Shown here: piece by piece, positions 41,118 to 43,751 of the stretch
How positions within the stretch are numbered: position 1 is the first letter of the stretch
Layout: each line of letters begins with the position of its first letter
From: an uncultured Flavobacteriaceae bacterium
GTDB taxonomy: Bacteria > Bacteroidota > Bacteroidia > Flavobacteriales > Flavobacteriaceae
DNA: 64,000 nt
Direction of reading: 5' to 3'
NCBI GenBank assembly: GCA_943788165.1
Contig: CALSPF010000001.1
Span: 868,001 to 932,000, forward strand
Translations under genes and position numbers: made by a program
Notes under the pieces: model-generated
The model's database searches: none
Told to the model about the DNA's origin: nothing
The model's input: the letters and a program-made list of their open reading frames with translations, nothing else

Positions 41118-42399
41118 TTTTGAGGTCATTTAGGCGTAAAGTTACGGCATTTTTATGCGCTTGCAAGCCTTCTGCATTAGCCATGGCTTCAATGGCAGGG
41201 CCTATTCCTTGAATTCCCTCTTTGGAAATTTTCTGAAAGGTCATTTGTTTAAGATAGCTATCGAGATTTACACCGCTATACTGTTTGGCATAACCATTGG
41301 TCGGCAAGGTGTGATTTGTTCCAGAAACATAATCTCCGGCACTTTCTGGGGTATAATTTCCAACAAAAACGGAACCTGCATTTTGAATGGCCTCCACATA
41401 AAGGGCTTCTTTCTCCATACAAATAATATAGTGTTCTGGTCCGTATTGATTGATGAAATCTATTGCAAGTTCATCTGAACTAAACGCTATCATCTTGGAA
41501 TTAGCGATGGCCTTGGCGGCAATTTCTTTTCGCGGCAATTCGGCCAACTGACGTTCAATTTCTTCAGCTACTTTGGGTAAAATATCCTGGGAAGTCGTCA
41601 CCAATATTACTTGGCTGTCGGGGCCGTGCTCTGCTTGCGACAACAAATCTGCCGCAACATAGGCCGGCTGAGCGCTTTGGTCAGCAACCACCAACAACTC
41701 ACTTGGGCCAGCGGGCATGTCAATGGCCACATTATAGTGTGTAGCGCATTGCTTAGCAACCGTTACATACTGATTACCAGGGCCAAATATCTTGTAGACA
41801 TTGGGGATGGTTTCCGTGCCAAAAGTCATCGCAGCAATTGCCTGAATTCCACCTACTGTATAGATTTTCGATACACCACACAAAGAGGCTGTATACAATA
41901 CTTCATCGGGTAAACTTCCGCTTTCATTAGGCGGAGAACACAATACTATTTCCGTACAGCCAGCAATTTGCGCAGGAATGGCGAGCATTAAGATGGTGGA
42001 AAACAATGGTGCAGAACCACCGGGGATATATAAGCCTACTTTTTGAATAGGACGTTTTTCTTGCCAACATTTAACACCGGCCTGGGTTTCTACTGAAACT
42101 TTAGGGGTTTTCTGTGCCCTGTGAAAGCCTTCAACATTTGTTTTCGCCAACTGGATGGCCTGCTTTAATTCGGACGTTAATCGATCACTGGCTTGGTCTA
42201 TATCCGTTTTTGGCACAACCAAATCAGTAAGCACAACTTTATCGAACTGAGTAGTGTAATCTTTTAGGGCTGCATCTCCTCTTTCACGAACTTCATTAAA
42301 AACTTTAGCTACGATTGGCTCAATTTCTGTATAGGAGGCTGTTGGGCGTGCCAATAAGGATTCCCATTCCTCTCTTGCTGGTTGAAGAAATTGTTCCAT
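41110..42399 (-). CDS. hisD: Histidinol dehydrogenase
   Basis: A 429-residue zinc enzyme that oxidises histidinol to histidine in two NAD-dependent steps, the end of the pathway. It shows 'GLYIPGGSAPLFSTILM' (N-terminal signature), 'GPGNQYVTVAKQ', 'DMPAGPSELLVVAD' and 'LLSQAEHGPDSQVILVT' (zinc-ligand region), then 'YGPEHYIICME' and 'ESAGDYVSGTNHTLPTNG'. The length is normal. It overlaps hisG by one base. Confidence 0.97.
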   Translation of the reverse strand: MEQFLQPAREEWESLLARPTASYTEIEPIVAKVFNEVRERGDAALKDYTTQFDKVVLTDLVVPKTDIDQASDRLTSELKQAIQLAKTNVEGFHRAQKTPKVSVETQAGVKCWQEKRPIQKVGLYIPGGSAPLFSTILMLAIPAQIAGCTEIVLCSPPNESGSLPDEVLYTASLCGVSKIYTVGGIQAIAAMTFGTETIPNVYKIFGPGNQYVTVAKQCATHYNVAIDMPAGPSELLVVADQSAQPAYVAADLLSQAEHGPDSQVILVTTSQDILPKVAEEIERQLAELPRKEIAAKAIANSKMIAFSSDELAIDFINQYGPEHYIICMEKEALYVEAIQNAGSVFVGNYTPESAGDYVSGTNHTLPTNGYAKQYSGVNLDSYLKQMTFQKISKEGIQGIGPAIEAMANAEGLQAHKNAVTLRLNDLKNE

Positions 42400-43250
42400 T
42401 ACAAAACCATTTTTTCAATTGGACAAACCAAAATATCTTCTGCTCCAGCTGCCTTTAGTTGATCGATTACCTCCCAAAAATCGCCTGCATTAATGACCGA
42501 ATGCAAAGAACTCCAGCCCTTTTTGGCCAAAGGCAATACGGTCGGGCTTTTCAATACGGGTAAAATAGTCGTGATTTCTTGAATTGCATTATTGGGAGCA
42601 TTCAAAAGAATATAGCGCGAACGCTTGGCCCGTAAAATGGCTTGAATACGGAACTGTATGGTTTCAATTAAACTCATTTGTTCAGCACTAAGATTAGGAC
42701 CCTGCACCAAAACAGCTTCAGATTCAAGGATTTTAACCACCTCTGTTAGGTTGTTCTTAAAGAGTGTACTTCCACTGGAAACAATATCAACTATAGCATC
42801 GGCAAGGCCAATACTGGGAGCAATCTCCACCGATCCGTTGATGATATGCAATTCAGCTTTGAGCTTATTTTCGACTAAAAACTGTTTGACTGTATTCGGA
42901 TAAGAGGTGGCTATTTTCTTTCCATTCAAATCCGCTAATCCGTTAAACTTGTCTCCTTTGGAGAGCGCAACTGAAACACGGCACTTTGAAAAACCGAGGC
43001 GTTCAATAATTTCTAAGTCCTGCCCTTTCTCTGTTAAGGTGTTACTTCCCAGAATAGCCAAGTCCACTACCCCATCGCGTAAATATTGTGGGATGTCTCC
43101 ATTGCGAAGAAAAAATACTTCCACAGGGAAATTCCGTGCCGCAGCCTTGAGTTGGTCTTTCCCATTGTCAATGGCGATGCCACAACTTTTGAGGAGTGCG
43201 AGGGACTCGGTATTGAGTCGGCCAGATTTTTGAATTGCTATGCGTATCAT
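42399..43250 (-). CDS. hisG: ATP phosphoribosyltransferase, long form
   Basis: A 283-residue first enzyme of histidine synthesis, joining ATP and PRPP. The catalytic domains show 'RIAIQKSGRLNTESLALL', 'DLAILGSNTLTEKG' and 'ADAIVDIVSSGSTLFKN' (PRPP loop, E/DxxxSSGxT type). A C-terminal ACT-like domain (about 210-283) with 'VINAGDFWEVIDQLKAAGAE' marks the long, histidine-inhibited form, so no HisZ is needed. The ATG at 43250 is chosen; a longer frame would run into the leader terminator. It is the first structural gene of the operon. Confidence 0.96.
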   Translation of the reverse strand: MIRIAIQKSGRLNTESLALLKSCGIAIDNGKDQLKAAARNFPVEVFFLRNGDIPQYLRDGVVDLAILGSNTLTEKGQDLEIIERLGFSKCRVSVALSKGDKFNGLADLNGKKIATSYPNTVKQFLVENKLKAELHIINGSVEIAPSIGLADAIVDIVSSGSTLFKNNLTEVVKILESEAVLVQGPNLSAEQMSLIETIQFRIQAILRAKRSRYILLNAPNNAIQEITTILPVLKSPTVLPLAKKGWSSLHSVINAGDFWEVIDQLKAAGAEDILVCPIEKMVL

Positions 43251-43293
43251 TTGTTTTGTGTTATGCCTGTGCTTGCTGCTTGTTTTTAAAACT

Positions 43294-43323
43294 AAAAAAA
43301 CCCGCTTGAAGCTCAAACGGGTT
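43294..43323 (-). terminator. his operon attenuator terminator
   Basis: On the minus strand, AACCCGTTTGA-gct-TCAAGCGGGTT forms an 11-bp stem with one mismatched pair (43313-43323 with 43299-43309), followed by a run of seven T (43294-43300). It lies 44 nt before hisG and 24 nt after the leader-peptide stop. Its left arm CGTTTGA is also complementary to TCAAACG inside the leader ORF (43355-43361), which would give a competing antiterminator. Confidence 0.8.
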
Positions 43324-43346
43324 ACTAATATATGAACACTATATCA

Positions 43347-43403
43347 TCAGCTCTCGTTTGATCGAAAGGTAAACTGATGTGTATGTGTATTGTTTTTTCT
43401 CAT
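43347..43403 (-). CDS. hisL: his operon leader peptide
   Basis: An 18-codon ORF, ATG at 43403, stop TGA at 43347, upstream of hisG. It reads M-R-K-N-N-T-H-T-H-Q-F-T-F-R-S-N-E-S, with two His codons (CAT) at positions 7 and 9. A ribosome stalled there for lack of charged His-tRNA would leave the following TCAAACG segment (codons 15-17) free to pair with the terminator's left arm. This is the classic layout of a histidine attenuator, although two His codons are few compared with enterobacterial hisL. The -7 box ends only 8 nt before the ATG. Confidence 0.65.
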   Translation of the reverse strand: MRKNNTHTHQFTFRSNES

Positions 43404-43411
43404 TTTATATG

Positions 43412-43419
43412 CAAATATA
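43412..43419 (-). promoter_or_regulatory. Putative -7 box (TATATTTG) of the his operon
   Basis: A perfect TAnnTTTG on the minus strand, 8 nt before the leader ATG. The transcript would start within a few bases of the leader codon. Confidence 0.55.
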
Positions 43420-43506
43420 GCTTTTATTTAGAAAGCAGAAAAATTGATCCTTATTATTTAAAAACCCAAATTGTTACAGTAATAACAGTGAAATAGAAAT
43501 ACCCTC

Positions 43507-43751
43507 TCAATCGAGTGGTTGATCAAAATAATCCATCAGTTTATCACTCGGAAGAAAGAAGAGGTAAATTGGAATGCGAAGGCCAATGATATATAACAAA
43601 TGGTGGATAAAGTAGGGTTAGTTCTTCCAGCTTCAATCCTCCGCAAAGATCCATCATCCATATCAATTCGATCAGATAACTCCTTTTGCGAAACATTCAG
43701 TCGCGTTCGGATGTATTTCACACGGTTTCCAAATATTTTCGCTGTGTACAT
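43507..43751 (-). pseudogene. Small XRE-family HTH regulator, one frameshift
   Basis: The frame 43536-43751 gives 71 residues with a clear HTH: 'VKYIRTRLNVSQKELSDRI', 'MDDGSLRRIEAGRTNPTLST' and 'ICYISLAF', then an unlike tail. Adding one base near 43568 gives the usual ending 'RIPIYLFFLPSDKLMDYFDQ' with a stop at 43507, 81 residues in all. The 245-bp length is one short of 82 codons. It could regulate a nearby operon, but no evidence links it to his. Confidence 0.72.

Follow-up and report, generated by a model that had tools for sequence, protein, structure and literature searches.

The leader upstream of hisG in the 64,000-nucleotide stretch of DNA analyzed here (the window) is very probably a ribosome-mediated transcription attenuator for histidine, a reading for which the anatomy of the leader, its conservation and covariation among relatives, and folding under ribosome-footprint constraints all argue. 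Attenuators of this kind are already known, and the window is a well-supported additional case. What appears to be new is a covarying fifth strand, placed by comparison between the terminator and hisG and chiefly a feature of relatives.

Results

The hisG leader contains a conserved short ORF with His codons

The window carries a compact his operon on the minus strand, running from 43250 down to 36269, which we delineated using profile models and by reading the translations. hisG, the first gene (42399–43250, ATG at 43250), scored above the cut-off of TIGR00070, and hisD (42399–41110), hisC (41129–40065) and a bifunctional hisB (40064–38940) above those of the NCBIfam models TIGR00069, TIGR01141 and NF003937, respectively. 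hisH, hisA, hisF and hisI, located 3′ of hisB, were assigned by eye from their translations. Directly upstream of the leader and in the same orientation lies a gene for a 71-amino-acid HTH_3 protein (43536–43751, minus strand). hisG places the genome in Flavobacteriaceae; the closest records by this gene are uncultured Flavobacteriaceae and Candidatus Arcticimaribacter, and the source organism is therefore probably marine.

A sequence-only reading of this DNA had placed an 18-codon leader peptide with two His codons in front of hisG, and the present analysis bears this out. The leader ORF, MRKNNTHTHQFTFRSNES, occupies 43347–43403 on the minus strand (ATG 43403–43401, stop TGA 43349–43347), with the putative control codons at positions 7 (His7, 43385–43383) and 9 (His9, 43379–43377). 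The remark that there are only two His codons is correct for the window but does not extend to its clade, in which two is the low end: among 38 own-clade leaders, 2 carry two His codons, 24 three, 11 four and 1 five. The ORF is 18 codons long in 35 of these 38 loci and 19 in the other 3, with the start picked by rule wherever several ATG codons were present. Across 36 aligned own-clade sequences, every base of codon 7 and positions 1 and 2 of codon 9 are conserved at 90% or above.

To profile the wider distribution, hisG loci were drawn from 100 family genomes, about one per genus (81 with hisG, of which 30 loci were taken first), together with 80 named-contig loci. From the 110 loci collected, two (L015 and L093) were dropped for having less than 200 nt of upstream sequence, leaving 108 in a sample that holds some near duplicates, such as L002 and L051. 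A His leader, defined as an ATG ORF of 10–32 codons with two His codons at most one residue apart and no more than 300 nt from hisG, precedes hisG in 103 of the 108 loci, window included, and in 3.8% of dinucleotide shuffles. A second batch of 51 family genomes, 6 of which were left out as their hisG start could not be placed, yielded a leader of the same type in 44 of the remaining 45. By sequence, the hallmark of amino-acid leaders, a short ORF bearing codons for the operon's own amino acid, is evidently present.

The leader ATG is preceded, at a distance of 8 nt, by the 3′ end of TATATTTG (43419–43412, minus strand), a TAnnTTTG element that we take to be of the Bacteroidota −7 promoter type. 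A search limited to 40 nt from the leader ATG detects the motif in 36 of the 38 loci of the own clade, compared with 43 of 108 others and 4.6% of shuffles; in those 36 own-clade loci its end lies 6–10 nt from the ATG. Outside the clade it sits at two distances, 4–11 and 17–24 nt. The closeness of the motif to the ATG is in keeping with the earlier description of a near-leaderless start, in which transcription would begin a few bases before the leader ATG. The Sinorhizobium trpL attenuator reportedly has a leaderless start, and in the window, too, the attenuator ORF would lie close to the 5′ terminus of the RNA or right at it.

Comparison supports a mutually exclusive terminator and antiterminator

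Alignments and a terminator scan identified an intrinsic terminator between the ORF and the first gene (43323–43294, minus strand), in agreement with the earlier call of a strong stem and T7 tract. Its left arm (strand 3, AACCCGTTTGA, 43313–43323) and right arm (strand 4, TCAAGCGGGTT, 43309–43299; with the T7 tract at 43300–43294, spanning 43294–43309) form 11 pairs around a 3-nt loop. It is the one terminator-like site in 43200–43560, where shuffles gave 0.1 ± 0.4, and folding of the 121-nt leader yields −29.5 kcal/mol (z = −4.4), a value equalled by none of 200 shuffles. A terminator with a perfect stem was found in 96 of 103 leaders; the 7 others were excluded from the strand 5 tests and the ribosome-footprint folding described below.

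The proposed antiterminator strand within the ORF (strand 2, TCAAACG, 43361–43355, minus strand) is complementary to CGTTTGA in strand 3 (43319–43313), exactly where the sequence-only reading had put both. Taken on its own, the window's 7-bp match is within chance, 26% of 100 shuffles containing a match as long and 14% one as stable, and a comparison of relatives was therefore needed. Tested locus by locus, the antiterminator duplex outperforms shuffled sequence in 72 of 96 cases (p ≤ 0.05). In the own clade (36 distinct sequences) it is paired in 99.6% of 251 cells, compared with at most 56.7% when one strand is slid against the other, and the 36-sequence alignment contains zero double changes because the strands hardly vary. 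In the wider family (68 sequences), 92.3% of 612 cells are paired and 23 cells are double changes, with both sides changing; 21 of these 23 fall at the end pair, at which 28 of the 68 sequences are unpaired. The terminator is paired in 99.5% of 395 own-clade cells, with double changes in 2 pairs, and in 98.0% of 814 cells of the wider set, with double changes in 5 of 12 pairs. The wider-set percentages are raised by the composition of that alignment, for which 68 of 101 distinct sequences outside the own clade were chosen by eye and divergent ones or those with another layout omitted.

Together, these data support the idea that pairing of the ORF end with the left arm excludes the terminator, as do the constrained folds below. 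The alignment of hisG upstream regions, which the sequence-only reading had proposed as a check, thereby shows His codons that are kept in relatives and covariation in both the terminator and the antiterminator stem; comparison thus backs a mutually exclusive antiterminator, with double changes mostly at the end pair. The terminator duplex is the longer of the two (11 versus 7 pairs), so the switch must depend on the order of folding.

A predicted sequestering hairpin and the position of the ribosome

How the terminator would be freed during normal translation had been ascribed to a weaker GTTT/AAAC pairing inside the leader ORF. This pairing is absent from the predicted folds, and we rejected it as the competitor. 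Minimum-free-energy folding instead predicts one long hairpin extending from the His codons to past the stop codon. Its 5′ arm (strand 1, 43374–43388, minus strand; outer ACACATA, inner CATCAG) covers the His codons, and its apex (CTTTCG 43368–43363 with CGAGAG 43356–43351) and 3′ arm (CTGATG 43350–43345, paired with CATCAG, and an outer arm extending to 43336) span 43336–43368 and overlap the stop codon. Strand 2 would lie at the apex of this sequestering hairpin, with ATCAAA in the apical loop, and the GAG that follows strand 2 is likely kept because of its role in closing the apical stem. The window's hairpin is not conserved in its exact register: in fixed alignment columns 53.0% of cells are paired, a value reached in 429 of 500 shuffles. 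As the fixed-column test failed, each sequence was folded individually. The window's region from ATG to terminator then gives a folding z of −2.2, and z is below −2 in 19 of 38 own-clade leaders and 105 of 140 leaders overall.

We next evaluated the predicted probability of pairing between strands 2 and 3, P(2:3), under an assumed ribosome footprint. For the window, P(2:3) is 0.05 in the free RNA, 0.97 and 0.98 with a ribosome stalled at His7 and His9, respectively, and 0.00 with the ribosome at the stop codon, the latter being a consequence of the assumed footprint. Scanning the stall position gives 0.85–0.98 for A-site codons 5–11; the value falls to 0.29 at codon 12 and to 0.00 at codon 13 and beyond. 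His7 and His9 therefore sit within the permissive stretch. The best stalled state lies above both the free and the stop state in 127 of 140 leaders, and not in the other 13. Even with no ribosome, P(2:3) is above 0.5 in 21 of the 38 leaders of the own clade and in 30 of the 102 from elsewhere; these leaders, if untranslated, are therefore predicted by the model to antiterminate. Within the limits of the assumed footprint, these folds predict that stalling at the control codons, but not at the stop codon, frees the antiterminator.

From this anatomy and its conservation, both observed here, we infer a course of events in which termination, stalling and the response to histidine would follow from where the ribosome stands. 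RNA polymerase would start a few bases before the leader ATG, with a ribosome following directly. When charged tRNA-His is ample, the ribosome would reach the stop codon and cover strand 2, leaving strand 3 to pair with strand 4, such that the terminator forms and transcription ends after about 110 nt. With no translation, the sequestering hairpin would hold strand 2 and the terminator would form again. When His-tRNA is scarce, a ribosome stalled at His7 or His9 would cover strand 1 and open the sequestering hairpin; strand 2, thus freed, would pair with strand 3 and pre-empt the terminator, allowing transcription of the his genes.

A fifth strand between the terminator and hisG in relatives

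In many Flavobacteriaceae (for example loci L005, L020, L023, L088, L153 and L159), the spacer that separates hisG from the terminator contains a segment whose sequence is the reverse complement of left-arm apex plus loop. We spotted this segment, strand 5, by eye in the initial locus set, and tested it both there and on a set fetched later. Pairing of strand 3 with strand 5 (3:5) reached p ≤ 0.01 in 35 of 95 initial loci, with L043 excluded for its short spacer, and in 25 of 44 loci fetched later. With the analysis restricted to spacers of at least 35 nt, 38 of 58 family genomes passed this threshold, as did 21 of 36 contig loci. The mean energy of a locus's own 3:5 pairing was −12.26 kcal/mol, compared with −8.40 ± 0.24 kcal/mol for swapped strands, with none of 5000 permutations as low.

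Covariation was quantified in 41 distinct 3:5 pairs from family genomes, in which 91.2% of cells are paired, versus 76.3% when the strands were dealt anew (maximum 80.7% of 1000). Entry required at least 10 of 13 positions to be paired, a rule passed by 49 of 55 loci; since shuffled sequence also passed it in 21 of 55, dealing is the fair control. The 41 pairs contain 72 double-change cells, 51 of them at positions 8–11, which correspond to the terminator loop in members with a five-base loop. G-U cells outnumber A-C cells by 61:9 in 38 distinct pairs from family genomes and by 22:2 in 15 from the contig set, against about 29:24 in shuffled sequence, in a count that required at least 8 Watson–Crick pairs and whose choice of segment treats both mismatches alike. 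This excess points to pairing in the sense RNA. We rejected a DNA-binding inverted repeat, for which the terminator loop would not need to covary, as well as homogenization of an inverted repeat by template switching, which would not favor G-U over A-C mismatches. By these comparisons, 3:5 pairing in the sense RNA of relatives is well supported.

Among 59 loci with room and p ≤ 0.01, the end of strand 5 lies 12–20 nt before hisG in 50, 32–46 nt in 6 and 9, 10 or 21 nt in 3. In L026, L075, L118, L121 and L132, 32–46 nt rather than about 15 separate strand 5 from the ATG, which would fit the insertion of a small element.

In the window itself, a tentative strand 5 (AAGCACAGGC, 43265–43274, minus strand) could form 4 + 5 pairs with the apex and loop of strand 3, interrupted by one mismatch, at p of about 0.1 on its own; its counterparts in relatives pair strongly. 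Within the own clade, seven loci with room for strand 5 give a combined p of 0.0002, although these loci are related; taking one locus per distinct strand 3, p is 0.001 with the best member, 0.004 with the middle one and 0.02 with the worst. We regard this own-clade signal as a hint. The spacer is shorter than 19 nt in 29 of 37 own-clade loci tested, leaving no room for strand 5 at its usual place, and the window's lineage appears to keep strand 5 weakly if at all.

Next, we compared strand 5 with its competitor. Strand 3 pairs more stably with strand 4 (3:4) than with strand 5 in 59 of the 63 loci compared, by a median of 4.1 kcal/mol, the 63 comprising loci with strong 3:5 pairing and four added by hand; in at least 3 of them the forced 3:4 energy lies about 0.9 kcal/mol below the unforced minimum, a constraint artifact. 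Energetics therefore argue against strand 5 winning by itself. The predicted openness of the hisG start has a median of 0.86 with 3:5 formed and 0.57 with 3:4, compared with 0.81 in both states for the window. In a subset of loci, strand 5 has a second complement in ATGAGTAAA of hisG, with 20 of 106 at p ≤ 0.01 and 30 of 106 at p ≤ 0.05; the mean energy of this pairing is −6.25, versus −5.45 when permuted, and none of 5000 permutations was as low, in a test that ignores relatedness. Pairing of strand 5 with the hisG start was not seen in the window (p = 0.34).

Strand 3, that is the left arm and loop, would thus be contested by three segments, namely the end of the ORF, the right arm of the terminator and strand 5. 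In antiterminated transcripts, strand 5 would occupy strand 3 and the hisG start would stay open; in leaky transcripts, in which the terminator hairpin has formed, strand 5 would be free and, in the subset, could pair with the hisG start codon and leave the leakage untranslated. This arrangement suggests that strand 5 may act as a second, post-transcriptional gate that keeps leaky transcripts untranslated. We offer only tentatively, and consider rather improbable, the broader proposal that, where there is room for the strand, most of the Flavobacteriaceae sampled have a his attenuator with two gates. No description of a post-terminator strand was found in the literature searched, which consisted of open-licence papers, little of it aimed at such a strand.

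Distribution beyond the family and other leaders in the same genome

By sequence comparison, related His leaders precede hisG in many Bacteroidota, and the window is not a local oddity. In a phylum sample, 79 of 90 genomes gave a hisG match, often a weak one; 40 of 45 upstream regions were taken from matches above 230 bits, 5 of the 40 were dropped, and the 35 remaining hisG starts were placed by a simple rule. A His-containing ORF was found in 33 of the 35 under a looser criterion (ATG, GTG or TTG start, 10–45 codons, within 400 nt of hisG), a count that comes with no estimate of chance. Strand 5 could be assessed in 18 of these loci and reached p ≤ 0.005 in three, all from the same family or order.

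Nine loci of the same phylum (L196–L201 and L203–L205) have very His-rich leader ORFs, such as MNRKNLHTTHLHHGVHHLHQGHHHA with a GTG start, near which the scan found no terminator; these leaders are perhaps subject to a different mode of control. In Ancylomarina (L089 and L109), two His-rich leader ORFs lie in tandem, at about −367/−365 and −174/−177 from hisG, an arrangement that suggests tandem attenuators.

The window's genome contains further leaders of this appearance, with a Trp-rich leader before trpE (L162, MKIRNNNTNWWNE) and a Phe-rich leader before pheA (L163, MNNTFLYRNTFFYFFNEAERTL), each followed by a strong terminator; the end of the Phe-rich leader is complementary to the terminator arm. 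These probable further attenuators also speak for the attenuator reading of the his leader. Inspection by eye of the 300 nt upstream of ilvD in this genome revealed no leader.

Discussion

The sequence-only reading had likened this leader to enterobacterial hisL. The likeness holds for the way the element would work, with a short His-containing ORF, a terminator before hisG and an antiterminator freed by a stalled ribosome. It does not hold in detail: the window supports a simpler, four-strand reading, in which the antiterminator strand lies inside the ORF near the stop codon and at the apex of the sequestering hairpin; it has two His codons in place of the run of seven found in hisL, and its start is near-leaderless by inference. 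The Rfam model for enterobacterial hisL, His_leader (RF00514), did not reach its gathering score in the window, and was absent from the 11 matches up to E 10 in 43200–43560. Vitreschak et al. (2004) reportedly touched on Bacteroidetes.

Closer to the window, the accessible text of a study of Flavobacterium psychrophilum presents strong indications that leader peptides attenuate amino-acid operons, together with a structured hisG 5′ element, shared with other Flavobacteriaceae genera and lacking Rfam hits (PMC9723704). This element very likely belongs to the same family as the window leader; for it, that text describes neither a model of the strands nor an antiterminator, covariation or a fifth strand. 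In Bacteroides thetaiotaomicron, leader-peptide-like sORFs were described in long 5′ UTRs (PMC7366714), but the case concerns the mRNA of a hypothetical protein rather than his genes, and the words "his operon" are absent from the main text of that paper. Histidine attenuators found by comparison in the Bacillus cereus group, Eubacteriales and Erysipelotrichales (PMC9413887) share with the window a His leader peptide, a terminator and an antiterminator upstream of his operons, but belong to Firmicutes and are described there as having three to five His codons in a row. Before presenting its own Firmicutes cases, an earlier study, in the text available, knew of no leader-peptide system outside Proteobacteria and Actinobacteria (PMC2965389), and the accessible text on the his genes of the superphylum (PMC8305728) contains "attenuat" once, in reference to enterobacteria. 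The Sinorhizobium trpL attenuator differs from the window in responding to tryptophan, in belonging to Alphaproteobacteria and in encoding a peptide described as functioning in trans (PMC7298713).

Several other explanations of the leader were considered. Terminators can stand alone, and given that the window's antiterminator match is by itself within chance, the terminator might merely mark the end of an upstream transcript or act as a constitutive damper, with the short ORF incidental. We consider this very improbable, since a His ORF before hisG recurs in the two locus sets (103/108 and 44/45), all 38 own-clade ORFs have 18 or 19 codons, and the 3′ end of the ORF stays complementary to the terminator arm; a constitutive terminator was rejected on the same grounds. 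That a direct ligand-binding RNA or a T-box regulates the operon, rather than leader translation, might be entertained in view of a structured leader with a terminator, but seems likewise very improbable: neither the window nor the leaders of 20 relatives gave any Rfam family a score at its gathering level, the T-box model found no match in the window, and what is conserved are His codons and ribosome-spaced strands. T-box and metabolite riboswitch candidates were accordingly discarded.

A further explanation would add to attenuation rather than replace it, in that the terminated leader RNA or its peptide could additionally act in trans, as for Sinorhizobium trpL. Folding predicts a leader RNA of about 110 nt that is compact and stable, strand 3 and its loop are complementary in relatives to the segment just before hisG, and a function of the peTrpL peptide is reported in the accessible text of PMC7298713. 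The complement lies within the same mRNA, however, making intramolecular pairing the simpler reading, and we judge a role in trans to be unlikely. Ribosome-mediated attenuation in response to histidine remains by far the preferred account of the window leader.

This family of leaders reached the threshold of no Rfam model, either in the window or among the 20 relatives searched. The conserved post-terminator strand found in relatives could link the control of transcription with that of translation on a single mRNA.
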